The position numbers were made by a program, and so were the translations under genes. The notes below the pieces were generated by a model that was not told the DNA's origin, made no database searches, and saw only the letters and a program-made list of their open reading frames with translations. This document shows, piece after piece, positions 12,200 through 17,821 of a DNA stretch of 64,000 nt (the first letter of the stretch is position 1; every line of letters begins with the position of its first letter). Source of the DNA: Streptomyces zinciresistens K42. Lineage in GTDB: Bacteria > Actinomycetota > Actinomycetes > Streptomycetales > Streptomycetaceae. The stretch lies in assembly GCF_000225525.1 (NCBI RefSeq), contig NZ_AGBF01000004.1, positions 62,001 through 126,000 on the forward strand, in the 5' to 3' direction.

Positions 12200-13114
12200 T
12201 CATGCCGCGAACGGGGCTCCGGTGACGACGGCCGCGACCGTCGTCCCGCGCGCGAAGGCGCCCTCCTCCGCGAGGGCGAGAAGTCCGTACAGCAACTTGG
12301 CGACATAGAGACGTTCCACGGGCAGCCCGTGCCGCGCCTCGAAATCCTGTGCGAAGGCGTCGAGTTCGGGAGTCGTACGGGCGTACCCGCCGAAGTGGAA
12401 CCACTCGTCCAGCCACCAGTCGCCCCGGGGACCGCCGAACGCCGCGGTCTGCAGGGCGCGGACCTCACCGGAGAGGAAGCCGCCCCTGAGCACCGGGACG
12501 CCCAGGGCCCGTTGCCCCGGGCCCAGTCCGGCGGCGAGACCCGCGAGGGTGCCACCGGTGCCGCAGGCGACCGCGACCACGTCGGCCCGCCCGCGCAGCT
12601 CCTCGCCGAGCGCCACGCAGCCCCGTACGGCGGCGGTGTTGCTGCCGCCCTCCGGGACGACGTACGCCCCCTCGGCACCGGTCTCGCGCAGCACGGCCGC
12701 CAGGACCCGCGGATCGCTCTTGCGGCGGTAGGCGGCCCGGTCGACGAAGTGCAGCCGCATCCCGTCGGCGGCGCAGCGCGCCAGCGAGGGGTTCAGGGGG
12801 CGGCCGGCGAGCTCATGGCCGCGCACCACGCCGACCGTGGGCAGCCCCAGGAGGCGGCCCGCGGCGGCCGTGGCGCGCAGATGGTTGGAGTAGGCGCCGC
12901 CGAACGTGAGGACGGTACGCCCGTCGGCGGCGGCCAGGTTCGGCGCGAGCTTGCGCCACTTGTTGCCGATCAGTTCCGGGTGGATCAGGTCGTCCCGTTT
13001 GAGCAGCAGGCGCAGCCCGCGCCGGGTGAACCGCTCGTCGGCCCGCTCCTGCACGGGCGACGGGAGCCGGGGGCGCAGGGCGTCGAGGCCGGGGACGGCG
13101 TCGGGGCTGGTCAC
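12200..13114 (-). CDS. PLP-dependent deaminase, ACC deaminase / D-cysteine desulfhydrase family
   Basis: A 304-aa fold-type II PLP enzyme. GNKWRKL at 50-56 carries the predicted PLP lysine (Lys52), FGGAYSNH at 71-78 the Ser/Asn residues that hold substrate carboxylate, and a Gly-rich phosphate loop lies in CGTGGTLAGLAAG. Length is a little short of typical 330-aa ACC deaminases. Substrate (ACC, D-cysteine or another amino acid) cannot be fixed from sequence. It starts with GTG, ends convergently 19 bp from the antiporter gene and is read in the same direction as the preceding amidase. Confidence 0.82.
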   Translation of the reverse strand: MTSPDAVPGLDALRPRLPSPVQERADERFTRRGLRLLLKRDDLIHPELIGNKWRKLAPNLAAADGRTVLTFGGAYSNHLRATAAAGRLLGLPTVGVVRGHELAGRPLNPSLARCAADGMRLHFVDRAAYRRKSDPRVLAAVLRETGAEGAYVVPEGGSNTAAVRGCVALGEELRGRADVVAVACGTGGTLAGLAAGLGPGQRALGVPVLRGGFLSGEVRALQTAAFGGPRGDWWLDEWFHFGGYARTTPELDAFAQDFEARHGLPVERLYVAKLLYGLLALAEEGAFARGTTVAAVVTGAPFAA

Positions 13115-13736: not shown

Positions 13737-14030
13737 GAGCGCCTCCTTCGTGCCGAGTGCCGGGCCGCCGTGCGCGGCCGGCCTGTACGGGTGCTTTACC
13801 GAATACGGACGGGAGGACTCCTCTACTCGCACAGCGTGCGATCCGTTTCGGACAAACCCCGTGCCCGCGGCCGAGGGGCGAGGGCCCTCTTTTTGCCCAT
13901 CAACTCCGTGATCCATTCCCGCTCTTTCGGGTAATAGCATCGGCACACTCCGTGATGGAAGGCTGGTGGGGCAGATCGCGATGCGTGGCGCCACCGCGGC
14001 GCCGGAGCACGACCGGGAGGGCAATTCCAC
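13737..14030. promoter_or_regulatory. Divergent promoter region of amidase and encapsulin operon
   Basis: A 294-bp spacer of lower GC content than its surroundings. It contains a short self-complementary GAGGGCCCTC followed by TTTTT at about 13881-13895 on the plus strand, which could act as an attenuator in a long encapsulin leader. GGGAGG lies 9 bases before the encapsulin ATG. No -10/-35 pair stands out. Confidence 0.4.
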
Positions 14031-15437
14031 ATGTCGGTAGGCGAAGAGGTCCACACGGAGCAGGCCAAGACGCAGCAGAGTCTCGGCACCGCGGCCGCGC
14101 GGAACCTGGCCACCACGACCAAGTCCGCGCCGCAGATGCAGGAGATCAGCTCCCGCTGGCTGCTGCGGACGCTGCCCTGGGTGAACGTGCAGGGCGGCAC
14201 GTACCGGGTGAACCGGCGACTGACCTACGCCGTCGGGGACGGCCGCATCACCTTCGTCAAGACCGGCGACCAGGTCGAGGTCATCCCCGCCGAGCTGGGC
14301 GAACTGCCCGCGTTGCGGTCGTACGAGGACGAGGAGGTGCTCGCCGAGCTCGCCCGGCGCTGCCGGCAGCGCGAGTTCGCCGCGGGCGAGGTCATCGCCT
14401 CCTTCGGCAGCCCGACGGGCGAGGTGTACCTGCTGGCGCACGGCAGGGTCGAGAAGATCGGCACCGGCCCCTACGGCGACGACGCGGTCCTCGGCGTCCT
14501 CGCGGACGGCGCCTACTTCGGCGACGCCGCGCTGGTCGACCCCGACGCCATCTGGGAGTACACCGCCCGTGCGGCCACCGCCTGCACGGTGCTGGTCCTG
14601 CCCCGCCAGGACATCGAGCAGATCGCCGAGCGCGCCGAGTCCCTGAGCGGCCACCTCGAACAGCTGCGGACGATCCCCTCCCAGCGCACCAACAAGTACG
14701 GCGAGAAGGCGGTCGACCTGGCGGCCGGCCACAGCGGCGAGCCGGACATCCCGCACACCTTCGTCGACTACGAGGCCCGCCCCCGCGAGTACGAACTGAG
14801 CATCGCCCAGACCGTGCTGCGCATCCACACGCGCGTGGCCGACCTCTACAACCAGCCGATGAACCAGACCGAGCAGCAGTTGCGGCTGACGGTGGAGGCC
14901 CTCAAGGAGCGCCAGGAGCACGAGCTCGTCAACAACCGGGAGTTCGGACTCCTGCACAACTGTGAGTACGACCAGCGGATCCAGCCGCACGACGGGGTGC
15001 CCGGCCCCGACGACATGGACGAGCTGCTGTGTCGCCGGCGGGGCACCAAGCTCCTTCTCGCCCACCCGCGCGCCATCGCGGCGTTCGGGCGCGAGCTGAA
15101 CAAGCGCGGCCTCGTCCCCGAGACCATCGAGGTGGCGGGCAACCGCATCCCCACCTGGCGCGGTGTGCCGATCTACCCGTGCAACAAGATCCCGGTCACC
15201 GAGGAGCGCACGACCTCCATCATCGCCATGCGCACCGGCGAGGCGGAGCAGGGGGTGATCGGGCTCCAGCAGTCCGGCATCCCGGACGAGATCGAGCCGA
15301 GCCTGTCCTGCCGGTTCATGGGCATCAACGAACAGGCCATCATCAAGTACCTGGTGACGGCCTACTACTCCGCCGCGGTCCTGGTGCCGGACGCCCTCGG
15401 CGTGCTGGAGAACGTCGAGATCGGGCGCTGGCGGTGA
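14031..15437 (+). CDS. Family 2B encapsulin shell protein with cyclic-nucleotide-binding-like domain
   Basis: A 468-aa HK97-fold compartment-forming protein related to EshA. Residues about 1-95 form the N-arm and the first part of the fold ([24 protein letters not shown]). About 98-205 is an inserted CRP-like cNMP-binding domain ([21 protein letters not shown], then YFGDAALVD ... YTARAAT). From 240 to the C-terminus the HK97 core resumes ([88 protein letters not shown]). This layout is diagnostic of family 2B encapsulins. The phosphate cassette has FGD where CRP has FGE, so ligand binding is uncertain. The isoprenyl synthase gene follows 111 bp downstream as likely cargo. Confidence 0.93.
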
Positions 15438-15548
15438 CCCTTCGCGCCGGTCCGCCGTGTCCGGTGCCCGCGGCGCGGGTAGACCCTCCCGGGAGACGCC
15501 CAGCCGTTGCGGAGGAGCCACTGTCCGCCGACTCTCCGAGGCGATGCC

Positions 15549-16670
15549 ATGGGTGAGTTCATGACGAAGACGCAGCAACGCCCCGTAAAGGCGCGGCAGT
15601 CGACCGAGACGTTCGAAAGGCGGGGGCCCACGACCACCGACAGGGACGGCGGGCCCGAGGCGGAGGTGATCCTTGAGCGGGTGCGGGCGTGTGTCGACCC
15701 CGAACTGCGGGCGGCCGTCGAGTCGCTGCCGCCGTCGATACGACGCGTCGCGCTCCATCACTTCGGCTGGCAGCACCCGGACGGCAGCCCGGCACCCGGT
15801 GGCGCGGGCAAGGCGATCCGGCCGGCGCTGGTGCTGACCGCGGCCTCGGCGCTCGGCGGACCAGGGGCGCGCGAGGCGGCGGTAGGGGCGGCGGTCGCGG
15901 TGGAGCTGGTCCACAACTTCACGTTGCTCCACGACGACCTGATGGACCGGGACACCACCCGCCGGCACCGGCCCACCGCGTGGTCCGTGTTCGGTGACGC
16001 CGACGCGATCCTCGCCGGGGACGCCTTGCAGGCGCTGGCACTGCGGCTGCTCGCCGAGGACCCGCACCCGGCGTCCGCGGCGGCGGCCGCCCGGGTCGCG
16101 ACCTGCGTCATCGAGCTGTGCGCCGGTCAGCAGACGGACACGGCGATGGAGCGGCGGCACCCCGGCGAGGTCGGCCTCGACGAGGTGCTGACCATGGCCG
16201 AGGCCAAGACCGGCGCCCTGCTGGGGTGCGCGTGCGCCATCGGCGCGCTGTACGCGGGCGCGGCGGACGAGGACGTGGCGGCGATGGACGCGTTCGGCCG
16301 GGAGGCGGGGCTCGCCTTCCAGCTGATCGACGACGTCATCGGCATATGGGGCGACCCCAGCCGCACCGGCAAGCCGGTCGGCGCGGATCTGGCCGCCCGC
16401 AAGAAGTCCCTGCCGGTCGTCGCCGCCCTGAACTCGGGCGGACCGGCGGCGGCCGAACTCGCCGAGCTGTACGGGACGCCGTACGACGGTGAGGACCTCC
16501 AGCTCACCGCGCTCGCCGTGGAGCGGGCCGGGGGCCGCGACTGGGCCCAGGCCCAGGCCGCGGACCGGATGGCACGCGCCGTGCAGGAGCTGGCCCGCGC
16601 GGTGCCCGACCCGGAGGAGGCGGGCGGACTGCTGGCCCTCGCCGAGTTCGTGACCCGGCGCAGCAACTGA
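15549..16670 (+). CDS. Isoprenyl diphosphate synthase (polyprenyl synthetase), probable encapsulin cargo
   Basis: A 373-aa trans-prenyltransferase that condenses IPP with an allylic diphosphate. GKAIRP (Lys88, Arg91) binds diphosphate. The first Asp-rich motif DDLMD is at 129-133, and the second region LIDDVIGIWGD at 259-269 has Gly at the last position of DDxxD, as in many actinobacterial members. The first ~35 residues are polar and disordered (many Gln, Arg, Thr), unlike free synthases, and resemble N-terminal loading tails of family 2 encapsulin cargo. The ATG at 15549 has GAGG 8 bases upstream; ATG 15561 is an alternative. Chain length cannot be deduced. The gene order shell-synthase implies a shared transcript. 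Confidence 0.88.
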   Translation: MGEFMTKTQQRPVKARQSTETFERRGPTTTDRDGGPEAEVILERVRACVDPELRAAVESLPPSIRRVALHHFGWQHPDGSPAPGGAGKAIRPALVLTAASALGGPGAREAAVGAAVAVELVHNFTLLHDDLMDRDTTRRHRPTAWSVFGDADAILAGDALQALALRLLAEDPHPASAAAAARVATCVIELCAGQQTDTAMERRHPGEVGLDEVLTMAEAKTGALLGCACAIGALYAGAADEDVAAMDAFGREAGLAFQLIDDVIGIWGDPSRTGKPVGADLAARKKSLPVVAALNSGGPAAAELAELYGTPYDGEDLQLTALAVERAGGRDWAQAQAADRMARAVQELARAVPDPEEAGGLLALAEFVTRRSN

Positions 16671-17203: not shown

Positions 17204-17821
17204 ATGGGCGTGGCGATCCGGACGGCGGGCGCGGCGGACCGGGAGCGGGTGGTCCGGCTGCTGGACTCGGCGTTCCAGGACGATCCGGTGTGCGGGTGGG
17301 TCTTCCCGGCTGAGGAGCGCCGCCGGGCCGCTCATCCCCGGCTCATGGCCGCCTTCACCGACATCGTGCTGGCCCACGGCTGGATCGACGTCACCGAGGA
17401 CGGCACCGCGTGCGCGCTGTGGATGCCGGTCCCGGCGGAGGCGCCCGCGCAGGACGACGAGGGCCCGGCCCGACTGCGCGAGGCCGTCGATCCGGAGAAC
17501 GAGCGGGTGGAGCTGATAGGCCGCCTCACGGCCGGCATCCATCCGGCGGGCCGCGCCCACGCCTACCTGTGGATGATCGCCGCGGCACCGGGACGGCAGG
17601 GCGAGGGCCTGGGCACCGCGCTCATCACCTCGGTCCTGGAGCGCTGCGACCGTGACGGCACCGGTGCCTATCTGGAGGCCAGCAGTGCCCGCGGCCGGGC
17701 GCTGTACGAGCGGCTGGGCTTCGAGCCGGAGGGGCGGCCCCTCGACCTGCCGGACGGCCCCCGGATATGGCCGATGTGGCGCACTCCGCGCACGGCGGGG
17801 TCCGTCGGCGGTTCGGCGTGA
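17204..17821 (+). CDS. GNAT-family N-acetyltransferase
   Basis: A 205-aa acetyl-CoA-dependent transferase of unknown substrate. The acetyl-CoA pyrophosphate loop is seen in PGRQGEGLGTALI (around residues 130-142), followed by ERCDRDGTGAYLEASSARGRALYERLGFEPEG, a standard GNAT C-terminus. The ATG at 17204 follows GGGGCGAGGA and gives the usual MGVAIRTAGAADRE opening. It stands alone, with repeat-rich spacers on both sides. Confidence 0.85.
   Translation: MGVAIRTAGAADRERVVRLLDSAFQDDPVCGWVFPAEERRRAAHPRLMAAFTDIVLAHGWIDVTEDGTACALWMPVPAEAPAQDDEGPARLREAVDPENERVELIGRLTAGIHPAGRAHAYLWMIAAAPGRQGEGLGTALITSVLERCDRDGTGAYLEASSARGRALYERLGFEPEGRPLDLPDGPRIWPMWRTPRTAGSVGGSA

Follow-up and report, generated by a model that had tools for sequence, protein, structure and literature searches.

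A PT-type family 2B encapsulin operon of Streptomyces with a probable prenyl synthase cargo and a conserved upstream element

A pair of co-oriented genes in the window (the whole stretch of 64,000 nucleotides of the Streptomyces zinciresistens K42 genome analysed here) encodes a family 2B encapsulin shell protein of 468 amino acids (14031..15437, plus strand) and, after a gap of 111 bp (15438-15548), a polyprenyl transferase (isoprenyl diphosphate synthase) of 373 amino acids that is its probable cargo (15549..16670, plus strand). Our reading, to which we assign a probability of roughly 0.75, is that this is a PT-type family 2B encapsulin, in which the shell would form the cage, the synthase would be the cargo, the product would fall in the GGPP range and the two genes would share an upstream element. 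The pair belongs to the PT class, which is already published and for which NCBI keeps a dedicated cargo model: the accessible text of PMC8346489 (2021) gives PT systems as 900 operons, 888 of them in Actinobacteria, and that of PMC12407261 lists PT as a 2B operon type. The coordinates, strand, shell length and intergenic gap that had been proposed for this locus in a sequence-only reading proved to be exact.

Results

The window encodes a full-length family 2B shell

The shell protein scores 771.7 bits against the 2B shell model NF041163 (cut-off 400), its residues 17-466 covering positions 1-450 of the 450-position profile. Profile searches placed PF19307 at residues 216-466 and the cyclic nucleotide-binding domain PF00027 at residues 114-201 (63.9 bits), between the N-terminal part and PF19307; a CRP-like PF00027 insert in the E-loop is the mark of a family 2B shell, and the window shell carries it. 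The best solved relative was 9bhu (653.6 bits, residues 13-467), which we take to be the shell of the 2-MIB system. AlphaFold gave a poor model of the shell (mean pLDDT 53.6, pTM 0.37), and the HK97 fold is therefore assigned from sequence similarity to solved 2B shells. We conclude from these matches that the window shell is a full-length family 2B encapsulin, in agreement with the sequence-only reading, which had also noted the inserted CRP-like domain. Named shell relatives at 82-91% identity come nearly all from Streptomyces, and the 8.22-Mb source genome (524 contigs) has another family 2 shell gene on contig C368, adjacent to that of a terpene cyclase.

The C-terminal HK97 part is shared with family 2A (283.7 bits to SrpI, 6x8m); however, 2A shells have no CRP-like insert, and the window shell scores 357.9 bits against NF041162, below the cut-off of 380. 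With the 2-MIB synthase or EshA-type 2B systems (9bhu; C368 in the same genome) it has the shell family in common, whereas the cargo there is a terpene cyclase. We presume that 9bix and 9bje are the structures from the S. lydicus study (PMC12407261). The two-component 2B encapsulin of that organism (9bix, 9bje; PMC12407261) likewise combines a CRP-like insert with an HK97 core, but has two shell genes where the window locus has one.

The N-arm segment of the shell (residues 17-31; 14079..14123, plus strand) has S17, L18, T20, A22, A23 and R24 invariant among 17 shells, giving the letters SLGT.AAR, and it resembles the published terpene-cyclase targeting motif GPTGLGTSAAR. The HK97 C-terminal part is under purifying selection, with a median dN/dS of 0.102 (11 pairs). 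A separate observation is that Rfam, searched at a permissive threshold, gave one family only, RF02735 (Sernc350, Saccharopolyspora sRNA 350), which matches the shell gene in antisense (14065-14569, minus strand, 161.2 bits). This match is probably the conserved coding sequence of the shell itself, as RF02735 probably represents the antisense strand of an encapsulin gene.

An invariant tryptophan replaces the phosphate-binding arginine of CRP

The inserted CRP-like domain spans residues ~91-213 (14301..14669, plus strand), and at the position of CRP's phosphate-binding arginine it carries a tryptophan, W175 (14553-14555, plus strand). It can be seen from the alignments that this residue is invariant in 17/17 and in 61/61 shells, the larger alignment (A3) including 60 of the 80 named shells, picked for diversity, with the L289 shell left out on account of a stop. 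All 89 genus shells likewise have Trp at this position, as judged from a sequence pattern or by visual reading; the pattern itself required Trp together with the preceding F, which is circular, and it missed 13 of the 89, in which Trp was read by eye, so that the non-circular evidence is that of the aligned columns of the 17-shell and 61-shell alignments. In a gap-free alignment to the CRP cassette, which includes Arg82 and Ser83, the shell Trp replaces Arg82 and mostly Glu replaces Ser83. A phosphate-binding arginine of the cNMP type was found neither in the window shell nor in the aligned 17 and 61 shells. The domain evolves faster than the HK97 C-terminal part, with a median dN/dS of 0.316 as against the value given above. 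On these sequences, cyclic-nucleotide sensing by the CRP-like domains appears unlikely.

The synthase matches the PT cargo model and has features of a GGPP synthase

The synthase scores 482.1 bits against the NCBI model NF041169 ('family 2 encapsulin cargo protein polyprenyl transferase'; cut-off 450), and PF00348 covers its residues 86-311. We took the ATG at 15549 as the start (373 amino acids), whereas a mechanical list of open reading frames starts at an upstream TTG (387 amino acids). The first Asp-rich motif, DDLMD (residues 129-133; 15933..15947, plus strand), is intact, as the sequence-only reading had recorded for this prenyl synthase, and is preceded by F124 (-5) and T125 (-4), both of them invariant in an alignment of 58 cargo synthases (A2; 57 of 74 relatives, picked for diversity). 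Ser stands in place of T125 in 18/18 paralogues that score below the cut-off. Two cysteines, C186 (16104-16106) and C191 (16119-16121), occur in 91/91 cargo synthases and 0/18 of these paralogues. The synthase core is likewise under purifying selection (median dN/dS 0.239, 11 pairs).

A DDxxD motif with no insert and with Phe at -5 points to products in the GGPP range. The window synthase has this arrangement (DDLMD, with the aromatic F124 at -5). When its AlphaFold model (mean pLDDT 85.7) was submitted to Foldseek, the best match was the S. coelicolor structure 3nf2 (TM-score 0.93, normalised by target length; 44% identity), and the next nearest solved folds were archaeal GGPP synthases; the score against the IdsB GGPP model NF045549 was 354.3, below the cut-off of 475. 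The predicted product is most likely a GGPP-range diphosphate of about C20, and we treat the chain-length residues as a lead, not as a product assignment.

The N-terminal 34 residues (15549..15650, plus strand) are predicted to be disordered (pLDDT <50 for residues 1-34), and this region is at most ~16 residues long in a sister group exemplified by L043. According to the accessible text of PMC8346489, PT cargo is marked by 50-100 disordered residues at the N-terminus, and the window synthase differs from the published systems in having only ~34. As far as that text describes the published PT operons (PMC8346489; models NF041163 and NF041169), the window locus agrees with them in shell architecture, cargo family, shell-then-synthase order and Streptomyces host, and the pair, which passes both curated cut-offs, is otherwise an ordinary member of the class.

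Shell and synthase genes are paired across the genus

We sampled 121 genomes of the genus, 91 of which have a synthase over the NF041169 cut-off. In 89 of these 91 a PT-type shell (72-100% identical to the window shell) is the immediate upstream neighbour, encoded in the same orientation, and in these 89 pairs 14-426 bp (median 119) separate the stop codon of the shell gene from the point where the synthase alignment begins. By contrast, no shell was found beside any of the 18 sub-cut-off paralogues within flanks of ~3-8 kb. We conclude that the pairing is beyond chance, and the strict pairing together with the NF041169 match bears out the earlier suggestion that the synthase is the probable cargo. 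Among 80 named loci, a set that overlaps the genus set, the synthase is present in 78, and the other two end 190-204 bases past the shell.

A few genomes depart from this arrangement. The synthase is kept and the PT-type shell lost in G076; shell and synthase lie on different contigs in G112, with no synthase within 1.6 kb after the shell; the shell (89% identical) is kept in G101 with the synthase reduced to its two ends; and in G006 the shell is kept and the synthase is gone. G082 has the shell along with a synthase in two reading frames, and the GNAT gene there is split likewise, possibly through assembly error. Separations such as those in G101, G006 and G076 indicate that neither shell nor synthase strictly needs the other to persist.

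The upstream neighbouring genes belong to the chromosomal background

Thirty of the sampled genomes lack PT, and a comparison made at the site of the NhaP (Na+/H+ antiporter) gene covered all but 12 of them. In 13/13 PT-less genomes with an NhaP orthologue, the shell, the synthase, the GNAT gene and the next two neighbours were undetected over 10 kb beyond it, and the PALP gene was kept at 10 and the amidase gene at 10 of the same 13 sites. The transporter, deaminase-like (PALP) and amidase genes thus often stay where the pair is absent, which indicates that they are inherited chromosomal background. The PALP gene, an upstream neighbour in the window (12200-13114, minus strand), is by its name presumably a deaminase. 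It may account for the 'deaminases' that the accessible text of PMC8346489 gives as enriched in PT operons.

Downstream of the pair lies a frequent neighbour, a GNAT-family acetyltransferase (17204..17821, plus strand; PF00583, 41.7 bits), which follows on the same strand in 59 of the 91 genus loci. It is missing from the other 32, and we do not claim the GNAT, TetR and dihydrofolate-reductase-like neighbours as pathway genes. A whole-genome search with PF19086 gave four terpene-synthase matches, none of them in the window, in keeping with the earlier remark that no terpene cyclase lies nearby. The nearest is an epi-isozizaene synthase (C521:50238-50825; NF045483, 720.7 bits, cut-off 675), which lies beyond the window, ~26 kb upstream of the shell gene.

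A conserved non-coding element precedes the shell gene

A conserved non-coding block of ~70 bp (13894..13964, plus strand) lies ~100 bp before the shell gene and probably serves the pair as promoter or operator, judging from its sequence and distribution. It consists of TGCCC, ~16 bp, the core GATCCATTCCCGCTCTTTCGGGTAAT (13910-13935) and then a GTGATGGAAGGCT-like part. The core anchor was found before 89/89 genus shells, with no substitution in 81, one in 6 and two in 2, and the element was also present at the sites with a lost or split partner (G101, G006, G082 and G112). Allowing up to 4 substitutions, it was found in 0/13 TC-type or two-component loci and at 0/15 pair-less NhaP sites. All 80 named loci contain it, although the test is weak, since loci as long as 13 kb were scanned throughout with ≤4 substitutions allowed. 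In G076 the element (C2:287298-287318) stands before the synthase alone (C2:286012-287007, minus strand), as would be expected if it drives both genes.

We also considered a structured leader RNA; an alignment of 22 sequences was folded and gave 3 predicted pairs with no compensatory changes. A leader RNA was rejected on this ground, as the lack of covarying base pairs favours a DNA element over an RNA.

In the source genome the 21-base pattern occurs once exactly and once more at 3 mismatches (backwards control, 7). Genus-wide there were 119 matches at ≤2 mismatches, 92 of them at 0-1 mismatch, and 91 of these 92 lie within 3.6 kb of an enzyme or shell start. The near matches are partly so by construction, because the pattern was derived from these loci, and the informative part is the lack of others. 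The 27 matches at 2 mismatches divide into 4 near and 23 far, a number close to that of the backwards control, which gave 30. A wider regulon was rejected on these counts.

Two side observations concern the element. At L122 (G041) it occurs twice in opposite orientation, ~200 bp apart (C225:605861-605881 and 606087-606107), and element-like sequences with 1 and 2 mismatches, respectively, occur in two genomes without a PT synthase over the cut-off (G050, C147:7605-7625; G047, C1:6187069-6187089).

PT-type shells form one clade with at least two changes of partner

The shell tree was built from 66 sequences taken from part of the loci, with stop-containing matches dropped. PT-type shells form one clade (100/100), and this clade includes the shells of G051 (L194) and G010 (L196), which nest in different subsets of it (99/95 and 100/99). 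These two shells have another genomic place, beside geosmin-synthase-type cyclases, and their genomes have no PT synthase over the cut-off; the two cyclases score 1175.6 (G051) and 812.2 bits (G010) against NF041168, both below its cut-off of 1200. We had considered them as orphan PT-type shells, a description that does not hold given these cyclase neighbours. Their placement indicates two or more changes of partner for the PT shell type. A separate group (100/100) holds the ten TC-type shells from other genomes, the TC shell of the source genome (L002) stands apart on a long branch, and adjacency to geosmin synthase, seen in four shells, takes four changes to explain on the tree.

The motif resemblance of the shell N-arm raises possible mimicry of the N-arm by cargo (L297-L326). 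Among relatives with shells close to that of the window (L327-L344), most geosmin synthases have no C-terminal copy of the motif and keep the linker G.GTSAAD. The geosmin synthase of the source genome (on a piece of C200) is cut by the contig end.

Discussion

The reading that we favour is that of a loaded compartment. Judging from solved 2B relatives, the shell protein would assemble into an icosahedral cage and the synthase from the next gene would be taken inside as cargo, where it would join IPP to allylic diphosphates and so give chains of, most likely, up to ~C20 (GGPP). The conserved element ~100 bp before the shell gene probably drives the co-expression of the two co-oriented genes. 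The CRP-like domains, which reportedly sit over the two-fold pore, may gate it by another ligand or mechanically.

The sequence-only reading had instead put the compartment under the control of a nucleotide signal, with the CRP-like domain gating it on cAMP, cGMP or a cyclic dinucleotide. The PF00027 match speaks for such gating, but Trp takes the place of the phosphate-binding Arg in every shell looked at, and the accessible text of PMC12407261 places the 2B domain above the two-fold pore and reports that it fails to bind cyclic nucleotides, a statement that covers cyclic nucleotides and not dinucleotides; we give this proposal hardly any credence. A different possibility is that the shell acts mainly alone, as a structural or developmental particle, with the synthase as a facultative guest or mere neighbour. 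A role of this kind has reportedly been proposed in the study of EshA. It would fit the retention of the shell in G101, G006 and perhaps G082, where the synthase is broken or lost, and the stronger constraint on the C-terminal part of the shell (0.102) than on the synthase (0.239). It does not account well for the 89/91 adjacency, for the match to a cargo model and the two cysteines that mark every cargo synthase and no paralogue, or for the reverse loss in G076, where the shell is gone and the synthase kept, and we consider it improbable.

The changes of partner bring in a further possibility, namely a terpene compartment with two cargoes, in which the PT-type shell takes up the adjoining synthase and also a distantly encoded geosmin synthase, the latter through its GPTGLGTSAAR-like motif. 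In the accessible text of PMC8346489 this motif is the likely targeting motif of terpene cyclases, and clusters that combine TC with PT number 165, which would suit two cargoes. The shells of G051 and G010, beside geosmin-synthase-type cyclases and yet nested in the PT clade, are also in favour. The strict motif occurs in the linker or C-terminus at 56 of 71 geosmin-synthase loci (loose form, 66/71) and only once in 24221 first-domain residues, the regular expression having been chosen post hoc and most of the 71 loci having been counted without regard to a shell beside them. These geosmin synthases are for the most part encoded away from the PT-type shell. The motif in the cyclases, the SLGT.AAR of the shell N-arm and the two shell moves together suggest geosmin synthase as a client in trans. 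On the other hand, geosmin synthase uses FPP, whereas the motif of the PT synthase predicts GGPP; the strict motif is missing from 15 of the 71 loci, 5 of which also lack the loose form; and the motif persists in genomes without a PT-type shell, among them G102, the one genome lacking any 2B shell over the cut-off in which the piece of geosmin synthase was long enough. In addition, shells next to geosmin synthase arise at four or more points of the tree, and their pairing is therefore not specific to the PT-type shell. On balance we regard the two-cargo compartment as rather unlikely, and a split-locus terpenoid factory, in which geosmin synthase would be loaded in trans by an LGTSAAR-like motif that mimics the shell N-arm, as equally doubtful. 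The PT-type encapsulin with the adjoining synthase as its cargo therefore remains the reading that we prefer.

Experiments on a PT-loaded shell were not found in the open literature searched, from which most subscription papers and bioRxiv fell outside. No product was found there either, which agrees with the statement in the sequence-only reading that none had been described. The survey of 121 genomes adds the count of the pairing, the upstream element, the background neighbours and the two shells that have moved beside geosmin synthase. The comparison removes the cyclic-nucleotide idea and separates true partners from inherited neighbours, and it singles out one upstream element as a candidate promoter or operator and geosmin synthase as a candidate second cargo.
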